64,000 nt of DNA, taken from Bdellovibrionales bacterium (GTDB taxonomy: Bacteria > Bdellovibrionota > Bdellovibrionia > Bdellovibrionales > UBA1609). The translations under genes were made by a program, and so were the position numbers. The stretch is from positions 1 to 64,000 of the forward strand of contig JADZEO010000082.1 of assembly GCA_020850475.1 (NCBI GenBank). Reading direction: 5' to 3'. The notes under the pieces were generated by a model. The model searched no databases, had not been told where the DNA came from, and was given only the letters and a program-made list of their open reading frames with translations. Within the stretch, counting starts at the first letter, position 1. The number at the start of each line of letters is the position of its first letter. This document shows, piece by piece, positions 7,683 through 18,169 of the stretch.

Positions 7683-8801
7683 TTAGATTCGCATCGGCAT
7701 CACTACGCAAGTATAACTATCGTCGTCCTTTGGACGAACCAATCCAGGTGAAAGTTGGTCATTCAACTGAATTTGAACGGTATCGTCAGTCATGCTGCTA
7801 AGGACGTCCAAAATGTACTTGGCGTTAAAGCCGATTTTTAATTCTTTACCCGCGTAGTCGACCTCGATGGTCTCTCGTGCGTCACCAAGTTCCGGGTTGT
7901 TAGAAGAAATCTCCATCCGGCCATTGGTCAGATTGAGAGTAACGCCCTTCGATTTTTGATTTGAAAACAACGAAACCCGCTTCAACGAAGAGAGCAAGGT
8001 ATCTCGTTTCACTGAAAGCCGTTTACTGAGATCCCGTGGAATAAGCTGTTGATAATTGGGATACTTACCCTCGATAAGACGAATCATTAAAACCGTAGTT
8101 CCGCTGCGAACGATCAACTGGGCTCCTTCAATCGCCATCTCGATGGGTTGGTCGACATGATCAAGTAGCTTACGAATTTCATTAAGACCTTTTCGCGGAA
8201 TGATCACTCCGGTTCCTGATAATTTGTCAGCTTCATCTCCGGTCACTCGCTCGACCAAGCTGAGGCGATGCCCGTCGGTCGCGACCATGCGAAATCCCTT
8301 GCCACGGGTTTCCTCAAAGCGATGAAAATAAACGCCGTTAAGGTGGTAACGAGTCTCATCGTTCGAAACACTGTAAATGGTTTTCTCGATCATCTCGGCA
8401 AGTACTTGTGAGTCGATGCTAACAAAATTTTCAGTCGAGTAGGTCGGAAACACCGGATACTCATCGGGGCTAATTCCGACGATATTCGATTCAATTTGGT
8501 TTTGACGGATGTGGAGCCAGTTGTTTTCCCGCTTTTCAAGTTCTACCAAACCCGGAGGTAGCTCTTTTAAGATGTCAAAAAGACTCTTAGCATTAACTGC
8601 AACTCGGCCTGAGCGTTCGACCTTGGCAGATACTTCGTCAGTAAGACTTACTTCAAGGTCTGTGGCAAAAATTTTGAGACGATCCCCTTCAGCATCCAGG
8701 AGCACGTTAATGAGGATGGGCATTGCATTGCGTTTTTCTACGATGTTCTGTGCTCTGGAAAGAAGAGTGACAAAGTCTGCTTGTTGAATCTGCAATTTCA
8801 T
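7683..8801 (-). CDS. dnaN: DNA polymerase III sliding clamp (beta subunit)
   Basis: Ring-shaped processivity clamp for DNA polymerase III, 372 aa. It shows the usual N-terminal pattern (LLSRAQNIVEKRNAMPILINV), the central FKATDGHR-like segment FRMVATDGHRLSLVE, and the conserved C-terminal end VVMPMRI. The ATG at 8801 follows AAGAGGGG. The origin lies immediately upstream, between dnaN and dnaA, so dnaN is separated from dnaA by oriC while still on the same strand. Confidence 0.97.
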   Translation of the reverse strand: MKLQIQQADFVTLLSRAQNIVEKRNAMPILINVLLDAEGDRLKIFATDLEVSLTDEVSAKVERSGRVAVNAKSLFDILKELPPGLVELEKRENNWLHIRQNQIESNIVGISPDEYPVFPTYSTENFVSIDSQVLAEMIEKTIYSVSNDETRYHLNGVYFHRFEETRGKGFRMVATDGHRLSLVERVTGDEADKLSGTGVIIPRKGLNEIRKLLDHVDQPIEMAIEGAQLIVRSGTTVLMIRLIEGKYPNYQQLIPRDLSKRLSVKRDTLLSSLKRVSLFSNQKSKGVTLNLTNGRMEISSNNPELGDARETIEVDYAGKELKIGFNAKYILDVLSSMTDDTVQIQLNDQLSPGLVRPKDDDSYTCVVMPMRI

Positions 8802-9034
8802 CGGCCTTATCCCCTCTTGTTAATAACTAGTACTTTTATATAATTAATAACCAGTAGTAATAGTAGGGCTGTGAATAACCCATTTAGCAACTTAACACCT
8901 CGAGAAGATTTAACTTTCGATGTGGATAAGTACCTAGCAATCCCACCGCCCAAAAGCCATTGTTTTGTTGAAAAGATTTGTCCACAAAACATTCGCAAAG
9001 TTTCCAACAAAGTTATCCACAACACTTATTCACA
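8802..9034. other. Chromosomal replication origin oriC
   Basis: The dnaA-dnaN gap plus the last bases of dnaA hold a dense set of DnaA boxes. Perfect TTATNCACA sites are at 8870-8878 (minus), 8921-8929 (minus), 9013-9021 (plus) and 9026-9034 (plus); a one-mismatch site, TTGTCCACA, is at 8978-8986 (plus). An AT-rich stretch at about 8819-8863 is the likely unwinding element. Boxes on the dnaN side face one way and those on the dnaA side the other. The position between dnaA and dnaN matches many bacterial origins, including that reported for Bdellovibrio. Identification is strong from the box cluster and gene context. Confidence 0.92.
8852..8878 (-). promoter_or_regulatory. DnaA-trio array next to a DnaA box (basal unwinding element)
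   Basis: Reading outward from the DnaA box TGTGAATAA (8870-8878), a GGC spacer is followed by the triplets TAG, TAG, TAA, TAG, CAG (8864-8866 back to 8852-8854), then by AT-rich DNA. In other bacteria repeats of 3'-GAT-5' next to a DnaA box and a GC-rich spacer guide DnaA filament assembly on one strand during origin melting. All three parts are present here in the right order and spacing. Confidence 0.75.
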
Positions 9035-10466
9035 GCCCTGTGATGTTGTGGATTCGGCTCTCTAAATCTTCAATACTTCTCTTTAAATCAGAATCCTTTT
9101 GGAGGTTAGTATCTATACGACGAATCGCATTAATAACAGTCGTATGATCTTTTCCGCCCATCAGGCGACCAATCTCCACCAGTGACTTGTCCTGGTGCTT
9201 CTTAATTAACCACATAGCAACCTGTCGTGCGACGACAATCGGTTTAGTTCTGGTACGTGCCCGTAAATCTGTAATGCGAAGTTTGTAGTGATCGGCGACC
9301 AGACGCATAATATCATCAGAAGAAAGGGTGGTTGTATCGTCATTGACCGCCAAAACGCGCTTGGCGAGCTCCAGGTTAATCTCAAGCCCCTGTAGATCAG
9401 AGAACATTTTGACTCGGTTCAGGTTGCCCTCGAGCTCTCTAATCGAACGCTTTGAGATGCGGGCAATGTAGTTAACCACTTCGCTTTGAAGGCGGATACC
9501 CCGGCGCTCTGCCTTATATCTAAGGATAGCAACCCTCGTTTCGAGCTCAGGCATCGTAATGTCGGCAATAAGACCCCATTCCAAGCGTGTTCGAATACGG
9601 TCCTCTAGACCGTTAATATCTTTGGGCATCCGATCCGAGGCCACGACGACCTGATGGCCCTTTTCAAAAAAGTCATTCAAGGTATGAAAGAACTCCTCCT
9701 GAACGGCCTCACCACGCCCCAAGATTTGAATATCGTCCATCAACAAAATGTCACAGGACTCGCGATACCGAGCTCTAAATTTATACATTTCCTGACGACG
9801 GATACTCGAAATACAATCATTAAGAAATCGTTCGGCCGAGACGTAGCAAATCCTCAGGTGTGGTTGTTTAACTCGGATATGATTGCCAACCGAGTTTAAG
9901 AGGTGGGTTTTTCCCATTCCGGTCGGTCCACAGACAAACAAAGGATTGTAATTTTCCTTCCCAGGGTTTTCCGCCACACTGTAAGAAGCGGCATGGGCAA
10001 ACTCATTGTTTCGACCCACAACAAAGGTGGAAAAGGTAAACTCGGAGTTAAGGTTGTCGCGTGACACCGAGCCTGACGAGGGTGTCCTCGCCTCTTGGGT
10101 ATTGTTAAATCGAGGCTCCGAAGACGGCTGAATCGGGGACTCAAGTTCACTCTCAAAACCCTCTGCCTCATTTAATGAAACAGCAGCCGGCGCTCCCGTC
10201 ACGACCATTTCAATTTCAAACTGAGATTTATAAATTGCTGAAATTTCAGAACAAATTCGATCAAAACAAAACTCTGAAATCCATTGGCGGTGGAGCTCTG
10301 AGCGAACGCCAAGCCGAAAGCAAGAAATACCATCTTCGCGTTTTTCAATATCAAGGAGATCAGTTTCTTCGAACCAGGCCTGAAACGGTTTATTATTCCG
10401 GTTTTTGGCAATAAGGCTCGTCTTAATCTGGTTCCATAAATCTTGAGTTTCCTGAGTTTCGCTCAC
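9030..10466 (-). CDS. dnaA: Chromosomal replication initiator DnaA
   Basis: AAA+ initiator that binds DnaA boxes and melts the origin. With the start at GTG 10466 it has 478 aa. Domain I starts with the usual QDLWNQIK; domain II is a low-complexity Ser/Pro linker; domain III has Walker A GPTGMGKT (180-187) and Walker B ILLMDDIQ; domain IV ends with the signature GGKDHTTVINAIRR. The frame is open for 23 more codons upstream (to 10535), but the GTG at 10466 follows GAGG by six bases and gives the normal DnaA N-terminus. The stop codon falls inside a DnaA box (9026-9034), so the gene's end is part of oriC. Confidence 0.97.
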   Translation of the reverse strand: MSETQETQDLWNQIKTSLIAKNRNNKPFQAWFEETDLLDIEKREDGISCFRLGVRSELHRQWISEFCFDRICSEISAIYKSQFEIEMVVTGAPAAVSLNEAEGFESELESPIQPSSEPRFNNTQEARTPSSGSVSRDNLNSEFTFSTFVVGRNNEFAHAASYSVAENPGKENYNPLFVCGPTGMGKTHLLNSVGNHIRVKQPHLRICYVSAERFLNDCISSIRRQEMYKFRARYRESCDILLMDDIQILGRGEAVQEEFFHTLNDFFEKGHQVVVASDRMPKDINGLEDRIRTRLEWGLIADITMPELETRVAILRYKAERRGIRLQSEVVNYIARISKRSIRELEGNLNRVKMFSDLQGLEINLELAKRVLAVNDDTTTLSSDDIMRLVADHYKLRITDLRARTRTKPIVVARQVAMWLIKKHQDKSLVEIGRLMGGKDHTTVINAIRRIDTNLQKDSDLKRSIEDLESRIHNITGL

Positions 10467-10508
10467 AGACACCCTCGCGAATAAGAATGTTGATCTTTTT
10501 CCCTGGAA

Positions 10509-10517
10509 TGTGGATAA
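10509..10517 (-). promoter_or_regulatory. DnaA box in the dnaA upstream region
   Basis: A perfect strong DnaA box, TTATCCACA on the minus strand, lies 43 bp before the dnaA start. It sits at or just after the transcription start expected from the candidate promoter at 10526-10554. This placement is typical of autorepression of dnaA by its own product. It might also assist origin function as a second box cluster. Confidence 0.7.
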
Positions 10518-10525
10518 GTGGGGCA

Positions 10526-10554
10526 CGTCTAGCATGACCTTGGAATTCTTTCAA
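10526..10554 (-). promoter_or_regulatory. Candidate dnaA promoter
   Basis: On the minus strand TTGAAA (10554-10549) and TAGACG (10531-10526) are separated by 17 bp. The -35 is good and the -10 weak (3 of 6). The predicted start would place the DnaA box at about +2 to +10. Sequence-based only. Confidence 0.35.
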
Positions 10555-10558
10555 TAGC

Positions 10559-10587
10559 TTGACGAGGCTGCGTCCTTATGGTTTTAT
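10559..10587 (+). promoter_or_regulatory. Candidate promoter of the rpmH-rnpA-yidD-yidC operon
   Basis: TTGACG (10559-10564) and TTTTAT (10582-10587) with a 17-bp spacer, about 68 bp before the rpmH start. It faces away from dnaA. The hexamers match the sigma70 consensus at 5/6 and 4/6. Confidence 0.5.
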
Positions 10588-10654
10588 GGCGCACCAAATC
10601 TAAGTGTTGGATAAGACGTAGGAAACTTGTCGTAAATCGGGAGACTGGAAATTT

Positions 10655-10804
10655 ATGAAAAGAACGTATCAACCGAGTCGTAAACGTAGAAAGAAAACCC
10701 ACGGCTTTCGCTCGCGGATGGCGAGCAAAGATGGACAAGAAGTATTGTCCCGTCGTCGCGCTAAGGGCCGCAAGCGTCTGACGGTGGCAGTAGGTGGCAA
10801 GTAA
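10655..10804 (+). CDS. rpmH: 50S ribosomal protein L34
   Basis: A 49-aa highly basic protein starting [19 protein letters not shown], the invariant L34 signature, and ending in the KGRKRLTV type tail. L34 is a late-assembly component of the large ribosomal subunit. It heads the rpmH-rnpA-yidD-yidC-khpB operon beside dnaA, the order found in most bacteria. It was identified by reading the sequence directly, since it is short. Confidence 0.97.
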
Positions 10805-11162
10805 AGCCCAAACTGGGCTGAACAGTCTTCGGAGTCGTTCTGATTTTCTGGAGATTTCACGCACCGGCCGTCAAATCAAACCATGTCCTTGGCTGATTTT
10901 GGCTTTCCGAAAAAATGACTGCGGAGAGTCACGTTTTGGATGGACCATTCCTCGTTATGTTGGGAACGCTGTTGTCAGGAATCGTCTTCGCCGCTGGTGT
11001 CGTGAGTACTACCGAAAACAGGCAAAACTCAGAGAAAAATCATTGGATATCAATCTGATCTTCCGACGTCGGGAGAAGGACTTTTATAAGAATGTCGAAC
11101 GAGAGAGCTTTTTCACCTATCTGGATCGGGCCAATGAAACGCTTGAAAAACAACGCGCTTAA
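10794..11162 (+). CDS. rnpA: Ribonuclease P protein component
   Basis: Protein cofactor of RNase P, which with the RNA subunit removes 5' leaders of tRNA precursors. The 122-aa sequence holds the family motif [10 protein letters not shown] within [12 protein letters not shown] and is basic throughout. The open frame begins at a GTG (10794) that overlaps the end of rpmH by 11 bp; no clear Shine-Dalgarno sequence decides the start, and a start a few codons later is possible. The RNase P RNA gene was not found in this window. Confidence 0.92.
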
Positions 11163-11394
11163 TTGCCTTCGGGCCGTGATGCGGCTGCTCGTCCAGTTTT
11201 ATCAAGGAACGATCAGTCTTTGGCTGGGCGGGAATTGCCGCTTTTATCCAAGTTGTTCGGAGTATGCCCTGGAGGCCATCGAAACCAAGGCCCCTCACGA
11301 AGCGCTCCGCTTGATTGTGCGCCGTCTTTGTCAATGTCATCCCCTGGGAAATGCGGGCTTTGATCCGGTTCCCTTAAGTGAGAGGAAGAAATGA
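11134..11394 (+). CDS. yidD: Membrane protein insertion efficiency factor YidD
   Basis: Small protein assisting YidC-mediated membrane insertion. The diagnostic segments are FYQGTISLWLGGNCRFYPSC, LCQCHPLGNAGFDPVP, with the conserved Cys residues in CRFYPSC and CQCHP. The frame is open from 11092. The ATG at 11134 gives 86 aa and overlaps the end of rnpA; an ATG at 11179 would give 71 aa, closer to typical YidD, but neither has a strong ribosome site. Its TGA overlaps the yidC ATG (ATGA). Confidence 0.88.
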   Translation: MKRLKNNALNCLRAVMRLLVQFYQGTISLWLGGNCRFYPSCSEYALEAIETKAPHEALRLIVRRLCQCHPLGNAGFDPVPLSERKK

Positions 11395-13058
11395 GCCAAG
11401 AGCAACAACCGTCATTTCTCGATAGCAAAACTATTTTGGCAATCGCGCTAGTGGGATTGAGCTGGGTAGCGTGGCAATCATATATGACGAAGAAATACCC
11501 CCGGGCTGATGAACAAAACCCTCAACAGGTTGAACAATCAGTCACCGGTGGAGAAGCTAAGATGGCGGAGGGCACTGCCGGCGAAGGTAATGGCGGCGCC
11601 GCTGTGGATAAACCTGAGGCCAAAGTGGACGGAGCCGTGAGCGCTCCAGCGGAGCCGGTCGCAAGTAAAGCCGAAAGCTTGGTGCATTTTGAAGACGACC
11701 ATTGGTCCTTTGATATCTCTAGTAAAGGCATGGGGATAAGAAACCTTTCCTTAAAAAACTACACAGACCGAGAAAAGCAACCGGTATCAATCGGTGGGGC
11801 GAGCGCGGAAGCGATGTTTGCAACCAACCTTATTGGCCGTCGAGGGGATTTGGATTTTTCAATAGAACAAATCAGCCCGGGTGAATTTAAGGGCACGGCC
11901 AATACCGAAGCGGGCCAGATAATTAAACTGGTTCGAGTGAAGTCGGCGCAATATCTTTTGGAGAATGAAATCATTGCTTCTGGATTGACCGGAGCCTTTG
12001 TCGGACTGAGAACGGCGATTGGAGATAGAATTGTAAAGGCAGAAAGCTCGGGCTTCATGATGCCAGCTTTTGATCAGCAAGAGTTTTATGTTCATGCCAA
12101 AGGCGGTAGCGAGCGATTGGTAGTGAACCCGAGTGACCTTGGTGAGATCGAGCGCACCTTGACGCAAGTTCATGTTGCGGCCCTCGGAAACCACTATTTT
12201 GCCCAAGCGGTGATCGACAATTCAGATGTTATGCCTGAACTCAAGAGCTTTGGCGATGCTCAGGCCGGCCTCGTTACCGGCTGGGTACAACATACGATGT
12301 TGAACAAGGCTGACGCGTTTAAGGTGCGATATCAAACTTTCGCTGGACCCAAATCATTCTCGCTGCTGGAAAAGATTGATCCTGAACTCGCCCAAATCGT
12401 TAACTTCGGAATGTTCTCGTGGATCGCCAAGCACATTCTTACGCTAATGAAGTGGTTTTTCTCTTTAGTTGGAAACTGGGGAATCGCGATCATCATTTTG
12501 ACCATTATCGTGCGGGTGTTTGTTTTGCCGTTTGCCGTGATGTCTTACAAATCAATGAAGAACATGCAGGCGATTCAGCCGCAAATTAAGGCCTTGCGCG
12601 AAAAATATGGCGAGGACAAGGCTCGGCTGAATCAAGAAATGATGGTCTTGATGAAGACCCACAAGGTTAACCCGCTGGGGGGTTGCTTGCCGATGTTGTT
12701 GCAGTTCCCCATTTTCATTGCTCTATATCAGGTACTTGGTCAGAGCATCGAACTATACCAAGCTCCGTTTGGGCTTTGGATTCCCGATCTCAGCCTTAAA
12801 GACCCCTTTTACATCCTTCCGGTGTTAATGGGAGTTACCATGTTTATTCAGCAAAAGATTACGCCAAACACGATGGATCCGGCGCAGGCCAAAGTGCTGA
12901 TGTTCATGCCGATTGTTTTCACGTTTTTTATGCTTTCGTTACCGAGCGGACTCACGCTGTACATTTTTGTAAGTACGCTCTTTGGAATTTTGCAGCAGAT
13001 TTATTTTATGAGGGACACAAAAACTAACCTGAAGACCGTAGAAGTCACAGCAAAATAG
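11391..13058 (+). CDS. yidC: Membrane protein insertase YidC
   Basis: Inner-membrane insertase (Oxa1 family) that integrates membrane proteins alone or with Sec. The 555-aa protein has the Gram-negative layout: an N-terminal helix (about residues 10-27), a periplasmic beta-domain of roughly 300 residues after an Ala/Gly/Glu-rich linker, then the five-helix core beginning near GNWGIAIIILTIIVRVFVLP. The core Arg of that segment, central in the hydrophilic groove, is present. ATGA overlap with yidD shows tight coupling. Confidence 0.96.
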   Translation: MSQEQQPSFLDSKTILAIALVGLSWVAWQSYMTKKYPRADEQNPQQVEQSVTGGEAKMAEGTAGEGNGGAAVDKPEAKVDGAVSAPAEPVASKAESLVHFEDDHWSFDISSKGMGIRNLSLKNYTDREKQPVSIGGASAEAMFATNLIGRRGDLDFSIEQISPGEFKGTANTEAGQIIKLVRVKSAQYLLENEIIASGLTGAFVGLRTAIGDRIVKAESSGFMMPAFDQQEFYVHAKGGSERLVVNPSDLGEIERTLTQVHVAALGNHYFAQAVIDNSDVMPELKSFGDAQAGLVTGWVQHTMLNKADAFKVRYQTFAGPKSFSLLEKIDPELAQIVNFGMFSWIAKHILTLMKWFFSLVGNWGIAIIILTIIVRVFVLPFAVMSYKSMKNMQAIQPQIKALREKYGEDKARLNQEMMVLMKTHKVNPLGGCLPMLLQFPIFIALYQVLGQSIELYQAPFGLWIPDLSLKDPFYILPVLMGVTMFIQQKITPNTMDPAQAKVLMFMPIVFTFFMLSLPSGLTLYIFVSTLFGILQQIYFMRDTKTNLKTVEVTAK

Positions 13059-17597: not shown

Positions 17598-17613
17598 TGT
17601 TCCACGTGGAACA
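17598..17613. promoter_or_regulatory. parS centromere site 1
   Basis: TGTTCCACGTGGAACA is a perfect 16-bp palindrome matching the bacterial parS consensus. With flanking bases the symmetry extends to 20 bp (17596-17615). It lies 8 bp after the rsmG stop and 11 bp before the 3' end of the converging lipoprotein gene. ParB would load here and spread. Confidence 0.93.
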
Positions 17614-18153: not shown

Positions 18154-18169
18154 TGTTCCACGTGGAACA
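18154..18169. promoter_or_regulatory. parS centromere site 2
   Basis: A second identical copy of TGTTCCACGTGGAACA, symmetric over 18 bp with flanks. It lies between the divergent lipoprotein gene (start 18137) and parA (start 18238), 68 bp before parA. Besides centromere function, ParB bound here could affect transcription of both genes. Confidence 0.93.

Follow-up and report, generated by a model that had tools for sequence, protein, structure and literature searches.

A well-preserved DnaA-trio element, very probably the basal unwinding system, in the oriC of a Bdellovibrionota chromosome

The gap between dnaA and dnaN analyzed here holds, at positions 8852 to 8878, a well-preserved copy of a known origin-opening element, real but largely ordinary; together with the AT-rich DNA beside it (8817 to 8878 in all), it very probably constitutes the basal unwinding system (BUS) of the chromosome's oriC. 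The window (i.e., the whole 64-kb stretch of DNA that was analyzed) comes from a Bdellovibrionota genome; in a scan of named bacterial genomes, its DnaA is 66 to 68% identical to those of Bdellovibrionales, Bdellovibrionaceae, and Pseudobdellovibrionaceae MAGs (four loci). The gap measures 228 bp and separates dnaN (7683 to 8801, minus strand, 372 aa) from dnaA (9030 to 10535, minus strand, 501 aa), within the order gyrA–gyrB–recF–dnaN–dnaA–rnpA–yidC (genes named from their translations), as in Bdellovibrio. GC skew changes sign in the oriC area and turns positive just past dnaA, and four perfect DnaA boxes are present within the gap and at its edge. Two perfect parS sites (TGTTCCACGTGGAACA, at 17598 to 17613 and 18154 to 18169) are situated near parA/parB, some 9 kb from oriC; B. 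bacteriovorus likewise has two parS sites near its origin.

On the plus strand, positions 8852 to 8878 read CAG-TAG-TAA-TAG-TAG-GGC-TGTGAATAA, which bears out, base for base, what the initial annotation had read there, GC spacer and box included. The DnaA box of the BUS, TTATTCACA (8870 to 8878, minus strand; TGTGAATAA on the plus strand), is a perfect match to TTWTNCACA and has one mismatch to TTATCCACA, where the published BUS definition, from which we took the limits on box mismatches, trio number, and box distance, allows up to two (PMC8287927). The plus-strand spacer GGC (8867 to 8869; GCC on the dnaA sense strand) separates this box from the DnaA-trio array (8852 to 8866, plus strand), which reads 3′-GAT GAT AAT GAT GAC-5′ away from the box and is made up of TAG at 8864 to 8866, TAG at 8861 to 8863, TAA at 8858 to 8860, TAG at 8855 to 8857, and CAG at 8852 to 8854. 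The array thus comprises five NAN triplets in phase, of which four are consensus; it starts 3 nt from the box (at least three triplets are called for, at a distance of 0 to 16 nt), and it has the defining polarity, 3′-GAT-5′ away from the box. Beyond them lies the AT-rich DNA unwinding element (DUE; 8817 to 8851), which, by nearest-neighbor energies, is both the 30- and the 50-bp stability minimum of the 64-kb window; the stretch flanking the trios at 8820 to 8851 has a GC content of 12%; the trios accordingly adjoin unstable AT-rich DNA within oriC, as the definition specifies. Within this AT-rich DNA, two 13-mers (8820 to 8832, TTAATAACTAGTA; 8844 to 8856, TTAATAACCAGTA) are identical at 12 of 13 positions and lie 24 nt apart, the second overlapping the degenerate trio 5.

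Comparison with the published BUS layout upholds the resemblance that had been pointed out: the order of box, spacer, trios, and AT-rich DNA, the polarity, and the position in the dnaA–dnaN gap all agree (PMC8287927). To call the element complete, with five triplets, is slightly generous. Trio 5 (CAG, i.e., 3′-GAC-5′) is off the consensus 3′-[G/A]A[T/A]-5′, with its central adenine kept and its third base not, and no close tandem second box is recognizable: inspection by eye found no box-like 9-mer directly upstream of 8870 to 8878. Such a second box is not obligatory, because single-box BUS modules have been described, the tandem set being predicted in 57% of origins (PMC8287927).

The arrangement of box, spacer, and trios is not due to chance. 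When defined as a box with at most one mismatch, a spacer of 2 to 5 nt, and at least four consensus trios, it occurs once in the 64-kb window and in none of 40 shuffles of the 64 kb, and it arises in only 0.1% of shuffles of the dnaA–dnaN gap itself. Across the 3.91-Mb genome, the pattern of four WAR triplets followed by NNN and TGTGNATAA has a single occurrence, and the same pattern read backwards has none.

Alignment of the dnaA–dnaN gaps of related genomes had been proposed as a check, with lack of conservation of the triplets as the outcome that would speak against the element. We examined these gaps in 85 genomes of the order (with per-genus counts over 48 genera), scoring the trios on the dnaA sense strand, where they read (CTA)5. 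This array is perfect in 39 of the 85, has at most two mismatches in 76, and has at most four in 83 (only 0.05% of shuffles come within two mismatches), with its phase conserved across the 48 genera; because 83 of the 85 related gaps carry a (CTA)5-like array, lack of conservation is not what is observed. On the opposite strand, no such array comes closer than three mismatches in any of the 85 gaps. Trio 1 is essentially invariant over the 48 genera, and among trios 1 to 4 degeneracy is greatest in trio 3; the base adjoining trio 1 is C on the sense strand in 46 of the 48, and in 46 of 48 the trios lie 3 to 4 nt from the box. The box itself is degenerate in many relatives (two to four mismatches to TTWTNCACA), and the distance from the array to dnaN is highly variable, at roughly 13 to 200 nt. 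With the box distance fixed and the dnaN distance variable, the array keeps its place relative to the box and not relative to dnaN.

Outside the order, the array is also present in 20 more distant genomes of the phylum, where a tandem box pair often precedes it in the manner of B. subtilis (e.g., TTATCCAC-AAATCCACA-GG-array); at loci L123, L126, L144, and L174, tandem DnaA boxes stand directly before the spacer. In the order to which the window belongs, the first of the two boxes has apparently decayed. One large family of the phylum lacks the array or has ATA-type arrays instead; at three loci in the phylum but outside the window's family (L145, L149, and L150), either ATA-type arrays after a DnaA box seem to replace the GAT trios or there is no clear array.

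We aligned the window's DnaA with the B. subtilis DnaA of cryo-EM entry 8btg and read residue pairs off the printed alignment. The residues that capture trio bases are defined by the B. subtilis structure, in which Asn196 contacts the third base (PMC10721633). Directly visible in the alignment is the retention of most of this pocket (B. subtilis = window: E183 = E235, N187 = N239, I190 = I242, I193 = I245, R202 = R254, E223 = E276, and E228 = E281); N196 and K222 are not kept, being replaced by Q248 and G275, respectively. Variation in the trios of relatives bears on the same model. Counted as genus-position combinations within the order, departures from A at the central trio base comprise 12 cases of C, 10 of T, and 1 of G; trio 1 has none, and trios 3 and 5 have the most (replacements by C or T are found at loci L007, L008, L010, L017, L027, L032, L050, L075, and L076). 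B. subtilis DnaA tolerates only C at this position, with T and G impaired (PMC10721633); the rarity of G and the tolerated C fit those data, whereas the frequent T does not.

The presence of the element, its conservation, the stability minimum, and the retained DnaA residues are shown directly by the present analysis; strand choice, the DnaA filament, and melting are extrapolated from work on B. subtilis and B. bacteriovorus. DnaA-ATP would dock on the duplex box at 8870 to 8878 through domain IV, and the oligomer would extend across the GGC spacer onto the plus strand toward dnaN, with one protomer per triplet. By homology with the B. subtilis structure (PMC10721633), DnaA should engage the plus strand, reading it 3′ to 5′ away from the box, and neighboring pairs of protomers would each capture the two 3′-side bases of a trio (3′-GA-5′). 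Base capture would stretch the plus strand such that the helix opens into the AT-rich DNA at 8817 to 8851, with helicase loading then expected at this AT-rich element. The initial annotation had taken the layout to indicate the strand gripped and the end that opens first; on this model, oriC would open at its trio/DUE end; melting in B. bacteriovorus is at the equivalent end (PMC5124646).

Apart from the BUS box, the gap and its edge contain further DnaA boxes. A second box, TTATCCACA (8921 to 8929, minus strand), lies 42 nt from the BUS box in the same orientation; a box of the same sequence, TTATCCACA (9013 to 9021, plus strand), is in the orientation opposite to that of the BUS box; a copy of TTATTCACA (9026 to 9034, plus strand) overlaps the dnaA stop codon; and the DnaA-box-like GAATCCACA (9047 to 9055, minus strand), within the dnaA 3′ end, fits the B. 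bacteriovorus consensus NN(A/T)TCCACA (PMC5124646). The 14-bp sequence AGGGCTGTGAATAA forms a perfect inverted repeat (8865 to 8878 and 9026 to 9039), such that the BUS box and spacer are duplicated, inverted and without trios, at the dnaA stop.

Between the second box and the BUS box is an IHF-like motif, TCTCGAGGTGTTA (8893 to 8905, minus strand), that agrees with WATCARNNNNTTR at seven of nine specified positions, and a short A-run (8915 to 8917, minus strand) lies 9 nt upstream of its core. Canonical IHF sites have an A-run upstream of the core. To align relatives, gaps were anchored on the trios and offsets counted from trio 1. The second box is located at exactly −63 in 23 of the 48 genera and one base away in 9 more. 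In an order-wide test that is post hoc, the idea having arisen from viewing the alignment, the IHF-like motif at −39 has a mean score of 6.23 of 9; 300 shuffles gave no more than 4.40, and the best of 400 permuted IHF consensuses fell just short, at 6.21. Support is weaker at the 20 more distant loci, where the IHF score is highest at −40, not −39, and 4% of permuted consensuses equal it. An AAA run occurs in the upstream interval in 58% of genera, versus 21% elsewhere. The order, with its near-fixed geometry, is second box, 42 nt with the IHF-like site, BUS box, 3 to 4 nt, and five trios. The genome encodes four HU/IHF-family proteins, among them an IhfA (135 bits, against an NCBIfam cutoff of 111) and an IhfB-like protein that falls below its cutoff (98.6 versus 115 bits), yet has IhfB as its best match. 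Consensuses for Fis and CtrA, considered as alternatives to IHF, have no peak at the conserved element, and the E. coli 33-mer pre-initiation IHF consensus has none in this register; a GATC (SeqA-like) signal peaks at −62 and probably reflects the letters of the TTATCCACA box.

The co-occurrence of a conserved IHF-like site with trios suggests, with moderate support but speculatively, that a bend as in E. coli is combined with a trio filament as in B. subtilis. An IHF bend between the BUS box and the box at 8921 to 8929 would probably bring further DnaA to the BUS, a weaker inference than the steps above. More generally, Bdellovibrionota origins might join trio filament and IHF bend, mechanisms commonly regarded as alternatives, in a near-fixed geometry, with an IHF-folded DnaA complex feeding or stabilizing the trio-bound strand; we offer this tentatively and would lean somewhat against it.

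Three other explanations of these features deserve consideration. The IHF-like motif, in its fixed register between two DnaA boxes, invites a reading along E. coli lines, in which an IHF bend allows a box-bound DnaA oligomer to capture the single-stranded DUE and the trios are dispensable. An IhfA above its family cutoff and an IhfB-like protein are encoded, and in E. coli the left DnaA-binding region, which adjoins the DUE, does have an IHF site and R5M on the far side of R1 (PMC10380432). Conservation, however, is much stronger in the trios than in the IHF-like motif, so the trios are unlikely to be dispensable, and B. bacteriovorus DnaA unwound its own oriC in vitro, if weakly, with no added HU or IHF described (PMC5124646). 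We consider melting without the trios unlikely, although the trio and IHF mechanisms may act together.

The remaining explanations deny the array a role in opening. It could be part of a dnaN promoter or leader, conserved for dnaN transcription or translation, given its location 51 to 65 nt upstream of the dnaN start codon; but it is to the DnaA box that relatives hold a constant distance, that to dnaN varying widely, and a promoter scan of 8700 to 9150 gave a single sigma-70-like match, at the chance rate and on the strand opposite to that needed for dnaN. Rfam yielded no family match and no structured RNA at 8000 to 11500. A function in dnaN expression is therefore very improbable as the cause of conservation. 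Still harder to credit is a microsatellite-like repeat that arose by slippage and persisted by chance in an AT-rich gap: although the CTA units are tandem, there are five of them in nearly all genomes, strand-polar and at a fixed start from the box, and substitutions interrupt units without changing their number, which is unlike slippage. The array is best read as the trio component of a BUS.

The locus presents a single-copy BUS that is readable from raw sequence, and the design of box, spacer, and five trios hardly changes throughout an entire order of predatory and related bacteria. For the base-capture model, the order-wide alignment supplies a set of naturally occurring mutations. If the fixed IHF-like site is real, the Bdellovibrio origin becomes a tractable case for cooperation between bending and trio binding.

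The element is a new example of a BUS, from an organism related to one whose origin has already been characterized. The BUS of B. subtilis oriC (DnaA-boxes #6/#7, GC-rich spacer, and trios) has the same order, from box through spacer and 3′-GAT-5′ trios to AT-rich DNA, and the same polarity. It, too, is in the dnaA–dnaN gap near dnaN. The two systems share the trio-pocket residues of DnaA, apart from the Asn196 and Lys222 replaced here, and trio 3, which is 3′-AAT-5′ here, has a 3′-AA-5′ dinucleotide in B. subtilis as well (PMC10721633). They differ in that one recognizable box stands here in place of the tandem #6/#7, and in that, unlike in B. subtilis, an IHF-like site and a second box follow 14 to 42 nt beyond the BUS box. 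BUS elements have been predicted in 85% of 2,070 origins, and their function has been shown in several species (Pelliciari et al. 2021, PMC8287927).

The closest characterized origin, which we compared through its published description (PMC5124646), is that of B. bacteriovorus, a different genus and probably a different family. Its oriC has the same gene order, a gap of 232 bp (228 bp here), and a DUE beside DnaA box 1, with four GAT trios and a short GC-rich region between them and that box, whereas trios 3 and 5 here are AAT and GAC, respectively; its two boxes in the dnaA 3′ end match those at 9026 to 9034 and 9047 to 9055 in position (PMC5124646). Melting at the DUE end was established there with P1 nuclease and primer extension, and initiation was confirmed by RIP mapping (Makowski et al. 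2016, PMC5124646); an IHF site in the Bdellovibrio oriC does not come up in the text of that paper.

For the IHF-like site, the likeness is to E. coli. The left half of the E. coli origin runs from DUE to box to IHF site to box. The same order is seen here as in DUE–R1–IBS1–R5M, with a box beside the DUE followed by the IHF-like site and a further box (PMC10380432), the two boxes here sharing their orientation at a distance of 42 nt. The BUS score of E. coli is only weak (PMC8287927), and its DUE has 13-mer repeats, where the present origin has clear trios.
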